Part shown: positions 1,011-19,691 of the stretch, in pieces
How positions within the stretch are numbered: position 1 is the stretch's first letter
Layout: every line of letters starts with the position of its first letter
Assembly (NCBI GenBank): GCA_027068765.1
Contig: JAMOMC010000009.1
Span: 1 to 51,327, forward strand
Length of the DNA stretch: 51,327 nucleotides
Reading direction: 5' to 3'
Source of the DNA: Campylobacterales bacterium
GTDB lineage: Bacteria > Campylobacterota > Campylobacteria > Campylobacterales > QNZT01
Notes under the pieces: model-generated
What the model was told of the DNA's origin: nothing
Database searches by the model: none
Seen by the model: only the letters and a program-made list of their open reading frames with translations
Made by a program: the position numbers and the translations under genes

Positions 1011-2398
1011 GTGAAAATAGACTACACAATTTAAATATCGAAAGAGCAGTTTTAAGCTCAATCCTTTTTGATCCCGCTCTTTATGAGGAGGCGGCGGCAA
1101 AACTAAAACCTAGAGATTTTTACTTGCCAGATCATAGTAGTATATTTGAAGCTATGGAGGAGCTAGAGCGAGAGAACCAACCTATAGATGAAGAGTTTTT
1201 GCGTAAAAAGTTACTTCAAAAAAACAAATTTAATGAAGATGTTTTTATAGAGATTATCTCTTCAAGTCCGCTCTCAAATTCACAAGCTTATATAGGTGAG
1301 ATCAAAGAGAAAGCTGTCAAACGAGAGCTTGTTAAACTTGCAAGACAGATCAAAGAGGTAGCTATTGATCAAGATTTGCCAAGTGATGATGTACTTGATG
1401 TTATACAGAAAAGACTTTATGAAATATCTCTTGATGCAACAACTAAAGAGTTTCGTGACTCTAGTGAGATGGTTATATCTACCATAAAACATATACATGA
1501 AATGAAAAAAAGAGGTAACAATGGAATTATCGGGGTTGATACTGGATTTCGTGAGTTAAATGAACATACGGCAGGATTTACTGAAGGTCAACTCATAATA
1601 ATAGCAGCTCGTCCTGCTATGGGTAAAACTTCGCTTGTTTTAAATATGGCTCAAAAAGCTCTTGATGATGGTAGAGGTGTTGCTATATTTTCACTAGAGA
1701 TGCCTGCAGAAGAGCTTATGACAAGAATGCTTAGTGCAAAAACTTCTATACCTCTTCAAAATTTAAAAGTAGGTGATATGAGTGATGATCAATGGTCTGA
1801 TCTGGCTCGTGCAACCGATGTCATAAGTCGTCAAAAGTTATTTGTAGATGATGATAGTTTGATAAATATAAACCAGATGAGAAGTAAACTTAGAAAGTTA
1901 AAGATGCAACATCCAGAGATTGCTATTATGATAGTTGATTATCTTCAACTTATGAATGGCACAAGTGGTAAAGATAGACATTTAGAAGTGAGTGAAATTA
2001 GCCGTGGATTAAAACTGCTAGCTAGAGAGCTTAATATGCCAATTATTGCACTTTCCCAATTAAATCGTGGTGTTGAGAGTCGTCATGATAAAAGACCAAT
2101 GCTTAGTGATATTAGAGAGTCTGGGAGTATTGAACAAGATGCAGATATCATTCTTTTTGTCTATCGTGATGATGTTTATAAGGGTCGTGCAGAGAAAGAG
2201 AAAGAGAAAAAAGCTAAAGCTGAAGGGCGAGAGTATAGAAGTACTTTTATTGAAAAACCAGAAGAGGATGCAGAGTTAATTATCGGTAAAAATAGAAGTG
2301 GTCCTGTGGGAAATGCAAATATAGTTTTTCAAAAAAGATTTACAAGATTTGTAGACAAGGGGAGTCCTCCTATCGAAATTATTTATGAAGAGAAATAA
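1007..2398 (+). CDS. dnaB: replicative DNA helicase DnaB
   Basis: This is the hexameric 5'-3' helicase that unwinds DNA ahead of the chromosomal replication fork. At 463 residues it has the usual length. An N-terminal primase-interaction domain covers about residues 1-110. The RecA-like motor has Walker A ARPAMGKTSL (201-210), Walker B IVDYLQ (309-314), the LSQLNRGVESR motif (349-359) and SDIRESGSIEQDAD (367-380). A charged lysine/glutamate-rich insert near residues 395-420 is typical of Campylobacterota DnaB. The start MSENRLHNLNIERAV fits the family. The gene begins exactly where a 5' fragment of an AAA+ gene ends, and a 3' fragment of that gene follows it, so the usual promoter and ribosome binding site of dnaB have been replaced. 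As the only dnaB in view and intact, it is probably the essential copy. Confidence 0.97.
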   Translation: MSENRLHNLNIERAVLSSILFDPALYEEAAAKLKPRDFYLPDHSSIFEAMEELERENQPIDEEFLRKKLLQKNKFNEDVFIEIISSSPLSNSQAYIGEIKEKAVKRELVKLARQIKEVAIDQDLPSDDVLDVIQKRLYEISLDATTKEFRDSSEMVISTIKHIHEMKKRGNNGIIGVDTGFRELNEHTAGFTEGQLIIIAARPAMGKTSLVLNMAQKALDDGRGVAIFSLEMPAEELMTRMLSAKTSIPLQNLKVGDMSDDQWSDLARATDVISRQKLFVDDDSLININQMRSKLRKLKMQHPEIAIMIVDYLQLMNGTSGKDRHLEVSEISRGLKLLARELNMPIIALSQLNRGVESRHDKRPMLSDIRESGSIEQDADIILFVYRDDVYKGRAEKEKEKKAKAEGREYRSTFIEKPEEDAELIIGKNRSGPVGNANIVFQKRFTRFVDKGSPPIEIIYEEK

Positions 2399-2612
2399 GG
2401 AGGTCAAAATATAGATTTTTTTCCAATTTAAGATTGATTTGACAATAATTATTTTGATAATGTTGTTTGCTTATGTGAGATTATTTGTGATGATGGCTGT
2501 TGGGTTTTTTCTCTATCTCTTTTTGATCCATTTTTCACAGCATAGTCCGCTTGTGAGTTTGAGAGATTTTGTAGAGAGGTTGGAGGATGAAGTTATGGTG
2601 AAAGGGGTTTAA
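2397..2612 (+). pseudogene. hydrophobic reading frame joined to AAA+ C-terminal tail
   Basis: A perfect AAGGAGGT (2397-2404) overlaps the end of dnaB and is followed 6 bases later by ATA, not ATG. That frame stops after six codons, but removing one T from the T run at 2416-2422 would join it to a frame that runs to TAA at 2610-2612. The only canonical early start in the open frame is TTG at 2439 or ATG at 2460. It encodes about 40 hydrophobic residues (LTIIILIMLFAYV, then VGFFLYLFLIHF), then switches in frame to VSLRDFVERLEDEV, the C-terminal tail of the AAA+ protein. I read this as the remnant of a membrane protein gene once downstream of dnaB, cut and joined to an AAA+ fragment. In Helicobacter comEC follows dnaB, but I cannot show that this is comEC. 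Confidence 0.5.
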
Positions 2613-2640
2613 GATATTAAGGTAGTTAGGTTTATATAAA
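2553..2640 (+). repeat. 3' fragment of the AAA+ gene (pairs with 6662-6749)
   Basis: From GTGAGTTTGAGAGATTTTGT onward the sequence follows the last 29 codons of the intact AAA+ gene with about 15 substitutions, including one that turns GTTGAA into GTTTAA and so gives an early stop. With the 5' copy at 574-1008 it brackets dnaB, as if dnaB replaced the middle of a second AAA+ gene. Confidence 0.85.
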
Positions 2641-2697
2641 TAATTTCTGCTTAATTGTAATTAGATAGAATAGTTAAATATTTGAAAAGGTATAAAG

Positions 2698-2805
2698 ATG
2701 ACAGAAGAAGAAAAATATAAAAATTTTTTTGATAAAATAGAGAAATTTAAAATCAAACAAACTCAACAGAAGCAAAGAGGTTTGAATAACTATAAAAAAA
2801 ATTAG
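2698..2805 (+). pseudogene. 35-codon frame, likely N-terminal remnant of a PD-(D/E)XK family protein
   Basis: The ATG at 2698 is preceded by AAAAGG with a 7-base spacer. The product is strongly charged (MTEEEKYKNFFDKIEKFK, then a glutamine/lysine-rich run and RGLNNY) and ends at TAG 2803-2805. The KxKQxxQKQRGLN(D/N)YN-type beginning is what I remember from N-termini of PDDEXK_4-type nucleases, which are normally several hundred residues long, so this is probably a truncated start. A genuine small protein cannot be excluded. It lies between the AAA+ tail fragment and the DUF2779 gene. Confidence 0.4.
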
Positions 2806-2828
2806 GATTAGTTTGCCTATTATAAACT

Positions 2829-2843
2829 AGACATAAAGCTGTC
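2829..2843 (+). promoter_or_regulatory. AGACA-N6-TGTC inverted-repeat motif, copy 2
   Basis: AGACATAAAGCTGTC lies 20 bases before the DUF2779 start codon and matches copies 1 and 3 base for base over 15 positions. CATAAT overlaps its right end (2843-2848) and could serve as a -10 element, so a protein bound here would block the promoter. The flanking sequence does not match that around copies 1 and 3, so this copy is not explained by the AAA+ duplication. Confidence 0.5.
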
Positions 2844-2863
2844 ATAATAAAAAGGAATCACCC

Positions 2864-4327
2864 ATGACCCTCTCAAAATCTCAATACATCCGAGGACTCC
2901 AATGCCATAAATCCCTATGGCTCCATAAAAACAATCCTGAGTTAAAAGATACTCCAGATGAACAAACTAAGTCGCTTTTTAAAACAGGTGGTAGTGTTGG
3001 GGAGTTAGCGAAAGAGTTGTTTCCTGATGGTGAGGAGGTAGAGTTTAATCCTGATGATTTTTCTAACATGGCAGAAAAAACTAAAGAGCTTATAGCAAGT
3101 GATACTAAAGTTATTTATGAAGCAACATTTAGAGAAAAAGGTATCTTTGCTATGGCAGATATCTTGGTCAAAAATGGTAACACTTGGGATATTTATGAAG
3201 TAAAATCATCTACACAAGTTAAAGAGTATCATCTAAACGATACATCGATACAGTGGTATGCACTTTGTGATACACTGAAGTTAAACCGTGCCTATATCAT
3301 ACATATCAACAACAGTTATATAAGAGAAAGTTTTTTAGATATAGAAGCACTTTTTACCAAAGTAGATATTACAGAGATAGTAAAAGATAAACAGGTTTCC
3401 ATAGAACACAATTTACAACAGATGAAAACAATGCTCTCAAAATCTATGCCAAATATCGACATCGGTAAACATTGCCACAACCCTTACACTTGCGACTTTT
3501 ATAGTCATTGTTGGTCACATGTACCAACTCCATCGGTTTTTAATCTCTACTGGATGAGTGGAAAAAAGAAATTTGAGATGTATGGCAAAGGGATATTGCA
3601 CTATGATGATATTTTACCAAGCATGGTATTAAATAGCACACAAACTTTACAGATAAATACAGCCAAAACAAAAAAGCCTCATATAGATAAGCCTATCATA
3701 AAAAAGTTTTTGCAGAGTGCTATTTATCCGTTAAATTTTTTTGATTTTGAGACTTTTCAAAATGCTATCCCTAGATTTGATAGACAAAAACCTTATGCTC
3801 AGATACCATTTCAATACTCTCTTCATATTCTCTATGAAGATGGAAGAGTTGAACACAAAGAGTTTTTAGGTGATGAAAACAGCGACCCAAGAAAAGAGTT
3901 GATAGCTCAGATGCTTAGTGATATCACACCAACTGGAAGTATCGTAGCTTACAATAAAAGCTTTGAGATAGGTGTTATCAGAGCTTTAGCTAAGTATAGA
4001 GTTGAGTTTTTAGATGCACTTTTGGCATTGACTGATAGATTTGTGGACTTGATAGTGCCGTTTAGACAAAGAGGCTATTATCATCCTGATTTTAATGGTA
4101 GTTTCTCTCTAAAATCTGTACTTCCTGCACTTTTTCCAAATGATAATGAATTAAATTATAAAAAGTTAGAGATACAAAATGGTGGCATGGCTATGGATAC
4201 TTTTGCCAATCTTCACTTGTTAAAAGATAAAAATTTAAGAGAAAAAATACGAGCAGATTTATTAGCCTATTGTTATTTAGATACTTTGGCAATGGTGAAG
4301 ATATGGGAAAAGTTAAAAGATATATAA
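2864..4327 (+). CDS. DUF2779 protein: Cas4/AddB-like nuclease fused to DEDD-type exonuclease domain
   Basis: This 487-residue protein has two apparent catalytic parts. Residues 1-220 resemble RecB/Cas4-type PD-(D/E)XK nucleases: D99 (MADIL) and E112-x-K114 (IYEVKSS) form the expected active site. Cysteines C14, C204, C210 and C216 have the spacing of the 4Fe-4S clamp of Cas4 and AddB. Residues 285-487 are the DUF2779 region and look like an RNase H-fold 3'-5' exonuclease, with D294-x-E296 (FFDFET), D395 and D473 (YLDT) as probable metal ligands. It probably acts on DNA ends in the cytoplasm; substrate and partner are unknown. The ATG follows AAAAGGA at normal spacing. A 48-bp piece of this gene is repeated at 7367-7414. 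The AGACA-N6-TGTC motif shared with the AAA+ gene suggests the two are co-regulated. Confidence 0.85.
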   Translation: MTLSKSQYIRGLQCHKSLWLHKNNPELKDTPDEQTKSLFKTGGSVGELAKELFPDGEEVEFNPDDFSNMAEKTKELIASDTKVIYEATFREKGIFAMADILVKNGNTWDIYEVKSSTQVKEYHLNDTSIQWYALCDTLKLNRAYIIHINNSYIRESFLDIEALFTKVDITEIVKDKQVSIEHNLQQMKTMLSKSMPNIDIGKHCHNPYTCDFYSHCWSHVPTPSVFNLYWMSGKKKFEMYGKGILHYDDILPSMVLNSTQTLQINTAKTKKPHIDKPIIKKFLQSAIYPLNFFDFETFQNAIPRFDRQKPYAQIPFQYSLHILYEDGRVEHKEFLGDENSDPRKELIAQMLSDITPTGSIVAYNKSFEIGVIRALAKYRVEFLDALLALTDRFVDLIVPFRQRGYYHPDFNGSFSLKSVLPALFPNDNELNYKKLEIQNGGMAMDTFANLHLLKDKNLREKIRADLLAYCYLDTLAMVKIWEKLKDI

Positions 4328-14195: not shown

Positions 14196-15044
14196 ATGGA
14201 ATACGGCACAGATATACTCTCACTTTTACAATCATTTGAGCTTCAAAGGGTAGCTTGGCTTAAAAAATTTGGCTTAATTGCTTTAATTGTAGTTTTGCTT
14301 AATATACTTTTTTTTATAAAATTTCGCTCAAATTTTCTCCCTTCACTTCTGTTTGGATTTATCATATTGGTTGGTAGTTATTATATTTTAAATACAAAGT
14401 ATAAAAAACAGCTACAAAATGCTCTAATCCCAAAATTAATTGAAAAAGTAGACCCGAATTTTAGGTGGGAAAAAGATAAAAAAATTGATATTGAACTTTT
14501 AAATAGATTAAAGATTTTCTCTCATAAGATTGAGACTATCACAAGTGATGGAGAAGTTATTTTACAAGATGCAGGAAAAAAAGTGAACTTATCTTTTGTT
14601 ACATTAGAGAGCATGAAGATAGATACAGAGGAGGGTGAACACTTTACAAAAAGATTTGATGGTTTGATAATAGAGTTAAAACTTGGTAAAAATTATAATC
14701 AAAAATATCTATTAGGAGAGGGTGAAAAAAGGGCAGAGTTTGAGGCAGGAGACTATATAAACCCTCCTTATATGGGGTTAAAATTTGTTGGCAGTTTTGG
14801 TGACTTTTCTCTTTATTCAGAAGATGGAGAGAGTAGGTTAGAAGATACTATTGTTCAAAAGCTAATAGAATTTAAAAAAGAGAATAAAAAAGATTTCTGG
14901 GCAATATTTGAAAAAGATAGAGTTTATATATTGGTTGATGATATGCATAATACTCTAGAGTTCTCACTATTTCAAACTTTAGAAACTCAAAATTTTATAT
15001 TGGAATATGTAAAGCTTTTAAAAAATGTTAAAAAATTAATCTAA
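14196..15044 (+). CDS. DUF3137-type membrane-anchored protein
   Basis: The protein has 282 residues with two membrane segments near the N-terminus (about 26-43 and 50-68), then a soluble C-terminal domain. The stretch FDGLIIELKLGKNYNQKYLL and the later two-domain beta-rich region recall the DUF3137 family, whose function is unknown. No catalytic motif is visible. AGGAG at 14184-14188 lies 7 bases before the ATG, partly in a hairpin. Its stop overlaps the converging gamma carbonic anhydrase gene by 4 bases. Confidence 0.7.
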   Translation: MEYGTDILSLLQSFELQRVAWLKKFGLIALIVVLLNILFFIKFRSNFLPSLLFGFIILVGSYYILNTKYKKQLQNALIPKLIEKVDPNFRWEKDKKIDIELLNRLKIFSHKIETITSDGEVILQDAGKKVNLSFVTLESMKIDTEEGEHFTKRFDGLIIELKLGKNYNQKYLLGEGEKRAEFEAGDYINPPYMGLKFVGSFGDFSLYSEDGESRLEDTIVQKLIEFKKENKKDFWAIFEKDRVYILVDDMHNTLEFSLFQTLETQNFILEYVKLLKNVKKLI

Positions 15045-15565
15045 TTATAACTATTTTTAAAACTAACATATCTTTTTGAAGATGCATAAAGCTCTTTTAT
15101 CTCTTTTTCATTTAGCTCTCGTACGACTTTTGCAGGTGAACCCATAATAAGGCTTCTTGGAGGAAAAATTTTATTTTTAGTCACTAAACTTCCTGCTCCT
15201 ACTATCGACTCCTCTCCAATTACAGCACCATCTAAAATTGTAGCACTCATGCCGATTAAACAAGCATTTTTAATTTCACATCCGTGAAGCATGACTCTAT
15301 GTCCAATTGTAACATCATCACCGATAATTGTAGGGTTTCCATCACTCTTATCCTCTTTTTTATAGTGAGTCACATGTACCATGCTTAAGTCCTGGACACT
15401 TACACGATTTCCAATAACAATCTTATGAACATCACCTCTTATAACTGTACCAAACCAGATAGAACAATCCTCTCCAAGAGTTACATCTCCTATCACATCC
15501 GCACTTGGAGCTATCCAACTGTTTTTTCCTATTTTTGGTTTTAAATCTTTATAATTTAGTATCAT
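15041..15565 (-). CDS. gamma-class carbonic anhydrase family protein
   Basis: This 174-residue left-handed beta-helix protein belongs to the gamma carbonic anhydrase/YrdA group. The metal-binding histidines are visible in VHVTHYKK (about 69-72) and in GHRVMLHGC (about 88-96). Hexapeptide repeats run from residue 10 to 140, followed by a C-terminal helix ([18 protein letters not shown]). It may hydrate CO2 or be an acyltransferase-like relative; many YrdA-type members lack strong activity. Its ATG overlaps the end of ppk by 4 bases (ATGA), so the two are translationally coupled. Confidence 0.88.
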
Positions 15566-17655
15566 TTGAATATCTTCTTTATTTTTGTTTGTCTATTTAT
15601 CTCTGTATTTTTTGTATTTGCTTTATATATTTTGTTGATATAGCTTTCTAAGTAAGTTTGAGAATCTATACTTTTTGTATCTTTGTCTCTTTCAATTATC
15701 TTATAGCTATCATCGCTTTGAAGCTCCCAAGAGAGTTCATTGTCATTGATTTGTAGATTTAGAAGATCTTTTATTTTTGAAGATAGTTCTTCATCATATA
15801 TAGGAATCATCAACTCAAATCTCTTTTCAAGATTTCTTGGCATCCAATCAGCACTAGATATAAAAGTTCCAGGAGTTTGATTTTTGAAGTAAAAAATTCT
15901 TGAGTGTTCTAGATATTTTCCTATTATTGACTTTACTCTTATGTTTTCACTTGCCCCTTTAATTCCAGGCTTTAAACAGCAAATACCTCTTATGATAAGG
16001 TCAATTTCAACACCTTCATTTGAAGCTTTATAGAGTGCTTTTATGACGTCTGCATCTACAAGTGAATTCATTTTTGCGATAATTCTACCACTACTCTTTT
16101 TCTCTCTCTCCATCTTTATCATATCAAGCAGAGACTCTTTCATCTGAAATGGTGACATTTTAAGATTGTTTAATTTTTTATTTTTTGAAAAACCTGTTAG
16201 GATATGAAAAAATGTAATAGAGTCAGCTCGAAACTCTGATCTTGATGTAAAGTAGCTTATATCTGTGTAGATTTTTGCAGTTGTTTCGTTGTAATTTCCT
16301 GTTGAGAAGTGTAGATAAATTTTGAGTTTATCATTACTTTTTCTTATGACTTGAGCAATTTTTGCATGCACTTTAAACCCTGGAATTCCATATATCACAT
16401 GGGCTCCTGACTCCTCTAGTGCTTTTGCCCAGATAAGATTGTTCTCTTCATCAAATCTAGCTTTTAACTCTACCATTGCAGTTACTTGTTTGCCATTATT
16501 AGCTGCATCTATGAGTGCTTGGACTATGGGAGAGTTTTTACCAACACGATAGAGTGTCATTCTGATAGAGAGAACTTTAGGGTCTTTTGCCGCACTTTGG
16601 ATAAAAGAGACAACAGGATCAAAACTCTCAAAGGGTTGCATAATCATAACATCTTGGCGATCTAAAATCTTAAAGATTGAGCCATCTTTATTAAAAGGAG
16701 GGAGAGAGCGAGGTTGAAACATTGGTGCATTTAGGTGAGAAAATTCTTTATTTGAGATGATATTCCATAAAGCACTTAGATTTAGAGGAATATCATAATC
16801 ATATATATCCTCTTCATCTATATCAAGATGCAAGATTAAAAAATCCAAAAGTGCTTTATCGCAGTTTTTCTCAATCTCTAATCTAACAAATGCCCCTTTT
16901 TTTCTCCTTCTTAAACCCTGTTCAAGAATCTCCATAAAGTCATCAGCTTCTTCCTCTTCAATAACAATATCAGCATTTCTAGTAACCCTAAATGTAGTCG
17001 CCGCCAAGATATCATAGCCAGGAAAAATATCATCTGCATGTTCTCTAACCAAAGAGTCAAGTGTGATATAGATACCATTTCCAATATTTACAAAACGAGG
17101 TAAAAGTCTAGGTATCCTAATCATTGCAAACTTTGTAATTTGACTATCTTCGTTATCTTGTAATTTTACAGCAAGTGAGAGTGAGAGGTTGTTTAGAGGT
17201 GGAAATGGATGAGTTGCATCTACAGCTATTGGTATTATAACTGGGAATATATTCTCATAAAAAAATTCATCTGCACTCTTTTTTAGCTCTTCATTTAACT
17301 CATTGTAACCCAATATATGAAGATTTGTACTTTTTAATTTTGAGACTATATCTTTGTAGTTTCTCTCTAAAATAGATTTTTCATCCGCAATATATGAGTG
17401 AATCGCAGCTAATTGTTCTTTTGGAGTCATCTTATCTTGACCTGTTGTAGGTACTCTTGCTGAGTATAACTCTTGAAGTCCTGCCACTCTTATCATATAA
17501 AACTCATCTAAATTTGTGGAGTAGATAGCGATAAACTTTAGTTTTTCTAAGAGTGGATTTGACTCTTTTTGACTTTGGCATAGTACACGAGAGTTAAACT
17601 GAAGCCAAGAGAGCTCTCTATTTATATAAAGTTCTGGTCTGTTTAAGTCACTCAT
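15562..17655 (-). CDS. ppk: polyphosphate kinase 1
   Basis: PPK1 makes inorganic polyphosphate from ATP at the inner face of the membrane. The 697-residue length is normal. The N-terminal domain starts [19 protein letters not shown], typical of PPK1. The phospholipase-D-like catalytic domains carry the autophosphorylated histidine in [13 protein letters not shown] (H near 449) and the second conserved histidine in EHSRIFYF (near 584). A glutamate-rich patch (EEEEADD) lies near residue 237. The gene is read divergently from the aldehyde dehydrogenase gene, from a promoter that forms one half of a 25-bp inverted repeat. Confidence 0.95.
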
Positions 17656-17682
17656 AATTTTCCTTATATAATTTTAATTAAC

Positions 17683-17749
17683 TTATTATAGCAAATATTT
17701 TATAATTTTTTAATATTATTAGATAATTATAAAATATTTGCTATAATAA
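17683..17749. promoter_or_regulatory. 25-bp perfect inverted repeat with mirrored extended -10 promoters
   Basis: Bases 17683-17707 are the exact complement of 17725-17749, with a 17-base AT loop. Each arm contains TTTGCTATAATAA reading outward, that is a TGN-TATAAT extended -10 element: 17742-17747 on the plus strand for the aldehyde dehydrogenase gene and 17685-17690 on the minus strand for ppk. No good -35 is seen on either side. A shared regulator or cruciform could control both promoters together. Confidence 0.7.
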
Positions 17750-17825
17750 AAACTTAAAAAATAGAGGTTTAAAGATAAGTTTTTATTATCTTTTTAATGA
17801 AATTATAAATTTTAAGGAACATCAC

Positions 17826-19322
17826 ATGGCATACGACAGACCGCAGTTTTTAGAGGAATATGATAATTTTATAGGTGGAGAGTTTGTAGCTCCAACAGAT
17901 GGAAAATATTTTGAAAAATTTTCGCCAATTGACAATAAACTAATGGCAAAAGTAGCACAATCAAATAAGAAAGATATTGATTTGGCAGTTGCTGCTGGAT
18001 GGGATGCATTTGAGAGTTGGGGGAAGAGTTCAGTTGCCTCAAGATCTGCTGTTTTAAATAAAATTGCAGATGTGATGGAGGCAAATCTTGAAGCTCTTGC
18101 AGTTTGTGAATCTTGGGATAATGGCAAGGCTATTCGAGAGACTATAAATGCTGATCTTCCTTTGGCGATTGATCATTATAGATACTTTGCATCTGTGATT
18201 CGTGGAGAATCTGGAAGTGTGAGTGATTTGGATGCAAATACTGTATCTATGGAAATTCATGAGCCTTTAGGTGTTGTTGGGCAGATTATTCCTTGGAATT
18301 TTCCTCTTTTGATGGCAGCTTGGAAAGTTGCTCCTGCTATCGCTGCTGGAAATTGTGTGGTTTTAAAACCAGCTGAGCAGACACCTATCTCTATTTTGGT
18401 GATGATGGATTTAATCAAAGATGTTGTACCAAAAGGTGTTATAAATGTTGTAAATGGGTTTGGATTAGAAGCTGGAAAACCATTAGCTACACACCCAGAT
18501 ATAAGAAAGATAGGCTTTACAGGTGAGACAACTACAGGACGACTCATAATGCAGTATGCATCTGAAAATATCATACCAGTTACACTAGAATTAGGTGGTA
18601 AATCTCCAAATATTTTCTTTGAGAGTGTCTGTGATAAAGATGATGAGTTTTTAGATAAAGCGATAGAGGGTTTAGTGCTGTTTGCATTTAATCAAGGTGA
18701 AGTTTGTACTTGTCCATCTCGTGCTTTAATTCAAGAGAGCATCTATGATAAGTTTATGGAAAAATGTCTAAAGAGAATTGAAGCTATCAAGATGGGTGAT
18801 CCGATGGAGAGTGATACCATGATGGGTGCTCAAGCATCAAAAGAGCAGTATGAGAAAATTTTAAATTATATAGATATTGGAAAACAAGAGGGAGCCGAAC
18901 TCTTAATAGGCGGAACAAAGTTTGAAAATGAAGCACATCCTGAAGGTTTTTATATAAAGCCAACACTCTTTAAAGGTCACAATAAAATGAGAATTTTCCA
19001 AGAGGAGATTTTTGGTCCAGTTCTAAGTGTAACAACTTTTAAAGATGAAGATGAAGCTATGGAGATTGCAAATGATACTATCTATGGTCTAGGTGCTGGT
19101 GTTTGGTCTAGAGATGTGCATCAGGTTCAAAAATTCTCACGAGGAGTGGAAGCTGGAAGAATTTGGGTAAATTGCTATCATGCTTATCCAGCTCATGCCT
19201 CATTTGGAGGATACAAAAAATCAGGAATAGGAAGAGAGACACATATGATGATGTTAAATAACTATAGACACACCAAAAATGTACTAACTTCTTATGATAA
19301 AAATGCTTTAGGCTTTTTCTAA
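17826..19322 (+). CDS. NAD(P)-dependent aldehyde dehydrogenase, AldB/ExaC type
   Basis: This 498-residue cytoplasmic enzyme oxidises an aldehyde, probably acetaldehyde, to the acid. The nucleotide-binding stretch [18 protein letters not shown], the general-base glutamate in LELGGKSPN (E255) and the catalytic cysteine in GEVCTCPSR (C294) are all present. The C-terminal [19 protein letters not shown] is typical of the AldB branch. A DUF779 gene follows with no gap, a pairing known for acetaldehyde dehydrogenases. AAGGA lies upstream of the ATG; the promoter is in the inverted repeat shared with ppk. Confidence 0.93.
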
Positions 19323-19691
19323 ATGCCAACAAGCAGAGTTGATGTGACCTCTAAAGCAAAAGAGGTGATAGATAAGCTAAGAGATGCACACGGTGAGCTT
19401 ATCTTTCACCAAAGTGGAGGATGTTGTGATGGTACAGCTGTGATGTGCTTTTCAAAAGATGAATTTATGCTAGGAGGAAGGGATCTTAAAATTGGAAATA
19501 TTAACGGTTGTGATTTCTATATGGCAGAAGATCAGTTTGAATATACAAAACATTCACATATAACTATAGATGTAGAGGAGGGGAGAGGTTCTGGTTTTTC
19601 ACTTGAAACCTCTTTGGGGTTTAGGTTTATCACAATATCTAGACTTTTTACAGATGAAGAGATGCAAAATTTAGAAGAGATCCAGATATAG
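19323..19691 (+). CDS. DUF779 protein, partner of aldehyde dehydrogenase
   Basis: The protein has 122 residues and starts with ATG immediately after the aldehyde dehydrogenase stop. The family is recognised by HQSGGCCDGTAVMCF near residues 29-43 and by FSLETSLGFRF near the C-terminus. DUF779 genes regularly follow or fuse to AldB-type aldehyde dehydrogenases; their biochemical role is not established. The GGCCDG cysteines suggest metal or redox chemistry, which is inference. Confidence 0.9.
   Translation: MPTSRVDVTSKAKEVIDKLRDAHGELIFHQSGGCCDGTAVMCFSKDEFMLGGRDLKIGNINGCDFYMAEDQFEYTKHSHITIDVEEGRGSGFSLETSLGFRFITISRLFTDEEMQNLEEIQI

Follow-up and report, generated by a model that had tools for sequence, protein, structure and literature searches.

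A near-palindrome between divergent ppk and aldehyde dehydrogenase genes in a Campylobacterales bacterium is probably an inverted duplication of the ppk promoter

Introduction

Does a long, symmetric stretch of DNA between two divergent genes mark a shared regulatory site, or does it record how one of the genes came by its promoter? This question is raised by the region between a polyphosphate kinase gene (ppk) and an aldehyde dehydrogenase gene (ALDH) in a Campylobacterales bacterium (assembly GCA_027068765.1, contig JAMOMC010000009.1), analysed within a stretch of 51,327 nucleotides, here called the window. The original prediction described a 25-bp perfect inverted repeat with mirrored promoters at this locus and proposed that a single DNA structure, or a single dimeric regulator, ties the synthesis of polyphosphate to the oxidation of aldehydes. 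The repeat and its flanking genes proved to be as described, as did, by sequence, its promoters, and the proposed coupling found no support.

Results

The perfect arms at 17683-17707 and 17725-17749 form the outer ends of a longer near-palindrome whose 33-nt arms are complementary at 31 of 33 positions, the outer 25 pairs being perfect (Table 1). Read outwards, the arms are TATTAAAAAATTATAAAATATTTGCTATAATAA on the ppk side and TATTAGATAATTATAAAATATTTGCTATAATAA on the ALDH side, and such near-identical arms around a centre of a single nucleotide are of the kind expected of a fold-back inverted duplication. The repeat is real and lies far beyond chance, since no arm as long was found either in simulations or in the genomic and related-locus background: the perfect arm reached at most 19 nt in 3000 first-order simulations of the 170-nt intergenic region (12% GC; spacer up to 60), among other perfect repeats (spacer up to 30) in 233 kb of sampled sequence from this genome the arms reached 23 nt, and arms of perfect repeats were no longer than 20 nt across 679 kb of related loci. 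Folded as a single DNA strand, the 67-mer has an energy of -19.7 kcal/mol, compared with -5.2 +/- 1.7 for shuffled sequences.

Table 1. Features of the ppk-ALDH locus, with positions in the window
Feature	Position	Strand	Remarks
ppk1, polyphosphate kinase	15562..17655	-	697 aa; NF003924 above cut-off
Near-palindrome	17683..17749	.	67 bp; arms 17683-17715 and 17717-17749; 1-nt centre, base 17716
ppk-side arm, putative source	17683..17715	-	ppk core promoter (-37 to -5); 27-29/33 identity in five near relatives
ppk -10 hexamer TATAAT	17685..17690	-	preceded by TGC; -35-like TTAAAA at 17708-17713; predicted start near 17678
uvrB 3'-end relic	17700..17714	-	ATT AAA AAA TTA TAA (I K K L stop); -36 to -22 of the ppk promoter
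Small palindrome TAATA-T-TATTA	17711-17721		at the centre of the 67-bp repeat
ALDH-side arm, putative copy	17717..17749	+	inverted ppk core promoter facing ALDH; differs from the ppk arm by two substitutions (about -32 and -30)
ALDH-facing -10 hexamer TATAAT	17742..17747	+	preceded by TGC; -35-like TTAGAT at 17719-17724; 17-bp spacer; predicted start near 17754
Second, smaller inverted repeat	17743..17789	.	14-bp perfect arms 17743-17756 and 17776-17789; overlaps the end of the ALDH-side arm
Aldehyde dehydrogenase (ALDH)	17826..19322	+	498 aa; ExaC-like as best NCBIfam model, with a score under its curated cut-off
DUF779 protein	19323..19691	+	directly downstream of ALDH, here and in relatives

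When the own genome was searched for other copies of the repeat, the sole strong secondary match was the repeat against itself in reverse; the remaining matches were weak and lay in AT-rich DNA, and a repeat family was accordingly rejected. With the intergenic region as a DNA query, relatives likewise returned weak AT-rich matches only. The second inverted repeat listed in Table 1 has the arms ATAATAAAAACTTA and TAAGTTTTTATTAT, of which the first seven bases are common to the end of the ALDH-side arm; an arm of at least 14 arose in 6 of 3000 simulations of the stretch that holds it, and it perhaps reflects a second fold-back event.

The two flanking genes are divergent, with the repeat in between, and no regulator gene was found among the genes that adjoin it. 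A gamma-carbonic-anhydrase-like gene (15041-15565, minus strand) overlaps the end of ppk, and apparently the same gene, as judged by eye, follows ppk at two loci of relatives (L007, L008).

By sequence, each arm holds one whole sigma-70 core promoter, from -37 to -5 when TATAAT is set at -12 to -7, and TGCTATAAT is present in both arms, facing outwards. The extended -10 promoters that the original prediction had placed symmetrically in the arms are well formed, and both arms carry gcTATAAT, in agreement with gnTAnaAT, the -10 motif of sigma-70 promoters that has been mapped in C. jejuni and H. pylori (Porcelli et al., PMC3847290). The predicted starts would give leaders of about 23 nt for ppk and about 72 nt for ALDH; the two -10 hexamers are 57 bp apart and the predicted starts 76 bp apart, the arms meeting at about -37. 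ALDH probably now uses the ALDH-side arm as its promoter. An RNA element was considered and rejected, there being no notable Rfam match and both predicted starts falling outside the palindrome, so that transcripts from the palindrome's own promoters would not include it. The ALDH leader showed no unusual structure, and a search for a transcription terminator at the locus found none.

The ppk-side arm has an ancestry in relatives. It is identical at 27-29 of 33 positions to sequence upstream of ppk in five near relatives (G001, G002, G004, G005 and L053), a resemblance that, in arms so AT-rich, is weaker evidence by itself than its length suggests. In these relatives the matching sequence lies 63-79 bp before the ppk match and ends at the same TATAAT, with a nearly equal distance to the start codon in four of the five. 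The arm also contains ATTAAAAAATTATAA, encoding I-K-K-L-stop, which is the coding end of uvrB in G005 and L053 (in G001 with one base different); in these three genomes the uvrB stop is closely followed by the ppk -10 box, so that the ppk promoter overlaps the end of uvrB. In most close relatives uvrB stands directly before ppk, with gaps of 16-200 bp; G001, G003, G005 and many others have this order. In the window's genome uvrB is on another contig (C32), followed by a different gene, and its last 15 nt are still upstream of ppk. The same sequence is found as a relic upstream of ppk in G002 and G004, where uvrB and ppk are separated by independent insertions (L043 of G004, 1245-3281; L045 of G002, 3805-4000), each of which has the last bases of uvrB both before ppk and at uvrB itself. 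Since both insertions left these bases before ppk, it is suggested that they were kept there as part of the ppk promoter. The contact between uvrB and ppk being broken in G002 and G004 as well, the duplication is not necessarily connected with the loss of uvrB.

The ALDH-side arm has no such counterpart. The regions upstream of ALDH in seven family relatives match it at 17-21 of 33 positions, no better than shuffled sequences (means about 18, maxima 21-24), and those of 11 more distant relatives of the order at only 18-21 of 33. Both mismatches between the arms are changes in the ALDH copy, which scores two lower than the ppk-side arm against each of the five best-matching relatives. One arm is thus ancestral and the other new, and the direction of copying would be from ppk to ALDH, because relatives match the ppk arm before ppk, both mismatches fall in the ALDH copy and the ALDH upstream regions are unmatched. 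Four bases are common to both arms and differ from the consensus of the relatives, which points to copying from a single source rather than slow compensatory change; because of these four bases, either the copying would postdate the divergence from these relatives or the arms would have been homogenised afterwards.

In 19 relatives the region before ppk held no comparable repeat (perfect arms of at most 9), nor did the region before ALDH in 11 relatives of the order (at most 11) or in the family relatives examined, and ppk and ALDH were adjacent at none of 80 ppk loci and none of 8 ALDH loci of relatives. The original prediction had itself named loss of symmetry in close relatives as its refutation, and in close relatives the symmetry is absent. 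A shared operator, which should be conserved as a symmetry before the same genes, and a conserved coupling of the two pathways are therefore unsupported, because both the repeat and the adjacency of the genes are absent in relatives. The repeat appears to be an example of rewiring after gene shuffling rather than a conserved regulatory switch.

A different element occupies the region before ALDH in several relatives. Five family relatives carry tandem copies of GCTATTTTCAT 45-70 bp upstream of ALDH, which are missing in the window; in the form GCTATTTT, with an 11-bp period, the tandem is placed some 45-70 bp ahead of the ALDH start in G001, G005, G018, G019 and G013, and a similar motif occurs in a more distant genome (L166). 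The ALDH of the window is without the tandem GCTATTTTC motif found upstream in several relatives, and ATGCTATTT had no occurrence when searched across the whole window. The element is not universal, G004 and others also being without it. Where it precedes the ALDH-DUF779 operon (L034, L035, L036, L037 and L038; L166), the tandem GCTATTTT looks like a candidate direct-repeat site for a regulator.

Discussion

Taken together, the repeat is quite probably an inverted duplication of the ppk promoter, generated by fold-back or template switch after the loss of uvrB and the arrival of ALDH-DUF779. In the ancestral state, ppk would have followed uvrB and been served by a sigma-70 promoter whose upstream half overlapped the uvrB stop codon. 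The two genes would then have been separated in the lineage of the window, with the last 15 nt of uvrB staying in the ppk promoter, and the ALDH-DUF779 operon would have been placed divergently beside ppk. During replication, a fold-back or template switch, for which the small palindrome at the centre of the repeat may have been the seed, would have produced a reverse copy of about 33 nt of the ppk promoter. As a result, ppk and ALDH would each have a core promoter of its own, the two lying back to back and directed separately. The repeat was seen in one genome of the species, and an older duplication kept alike by repeated correction of its arms would look identical. The case for this origin is strong, and that for the copied arm driving ALDH, which we infer from its sequence, is reasonable.

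Control of both genes together by one dimeric regulator bound to the palindrome is highly unlikely. Operators often sit in long symmetric DNA between divergent genes, and each arm has some internal symmetry (TTATA-N10-TATAA); however, TTATA belongs to the uvrB stop region and TATAA to the -10 box, both found at the same spacing in relatives without the repeat, arms of 33 nt are unnecessary for a single dimer, no regulator gene lies directly beside the repeat, and neither the symmetry nor the gene pair is conserved in the relatives examined. What the arms have in common is, as read from their sequence, the promoter itself, and an inverted copy would explain the symmetry without a regulator. Little more can be said for joint switching of both promoters, on or off, by a cruciform that supercoiling extrudes. 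Cruciforms are favoured by AT-rich inverted repeats (PMC10434271), the near-perfect AT-rich 67-mer is very stable when folded and its extrusion would remove both promoters from duplex form, but any inverted duplication gives such stability, which is therefore not evidence of use, and the structure is not conserved.

Reciprocal expression of ppk and ALDH, brought about by RNA polymerase at one promoter hindering the other, is unlikely but less so, given predicted starts only 76 bp apart with arms meeting at about -37. Bidirectional promoters have been reported to compete when one direction is strongly activated (PMC12825309), but the promoters concerned have one -10 element in common and starts that mostly lie 10-23 bp from each other, and the same study treated separate divergent promoters as distinct from direct clashes and saw little competition when activity was basal. 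Hindrance could in any case be a side effect of an inverted duplication rather than a rival to it, and both hindrance and cruciform extrusion are possible consequences of the duplication. The least probable reading, and a very improbable one, is that the repeat is an artefact of assembly or amplification. The genome is a draft of 211 contigs and inverted repeats do arise from fold-back chimeras, but a chimera would normally run back into the sequence from which it came, whereas the arms here stop after 33 nt, differ at two positions and continue into two different intact genes.

Template switching that yields perfect reverse-complement repeats is an established type of mutation (PMC8794818, PMC7202029). 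The locus resembles such template-switch or quasipalindrome mutations in being a short reverse-complement copy beside its source, with near-perfect arms and a tiny centre; it differs from the reported cases, which mostly concern correction of arms, multi-base changes or creation of RNA stems, in that the copied unit is an entire promoter and in that the event would be deduced from its product rather than observed. As in the bidirectional promoters of Warman et al. (PMC12825309), symmetry of sequence would lead to divergent transcription of two genes, but in those promoters a single -10 element is shared and the starts are typically separated by 10, 18 or 23 bp, whereas two -10 hexamers in two separate, complete promoters are found here. 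Gene shuffling followed by promoter turnover has been described for Epsilonproteobacteria by Porcelli et al. (PMC3847290), where genes with new neighbours gain or lose sigma-70 promoters with the -10 motif gnTAnaAT, in line with the situation at this locus; in the accessible part of that report, promoter gain by inverted copying is not described. A literature search of partial coverage brought up no previous case in which a promoter was gained in this manner.

Inverted copying of a whole core promoter by template switch may, as a tentative and rather doubtful generalisation, be a one-step way for a relocated gene to gain a divergent promoter, perhaps one that has repeatedly given rise to divergent promoter pairs in the AT-rich, heavily shuffled genomes of Campylobacterota. 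If true, the traceable source would show a moved gene acquiring its promoter in a single mutation, which would leave a recognisable scar, namely the stop codon of a departed gene mirrored before another gene. Perfect symmetry between divergent genes need not imply a regulator, and the locus has no bearing on any link between polyphosphate and aldehyde metabolism.

Another long palindrome, with 23-bp arms and a 3-nt loop, lies between divergent genes elsewhere in the same genome (L130:10842-10890; G000:C172:30842-30890). Since a relative (L151) carries a shorter core, TTTATGATTAAAAATTAATCAT, upstream of the same gene, the palindrome at L130 may be an operator-like core that was later extended.
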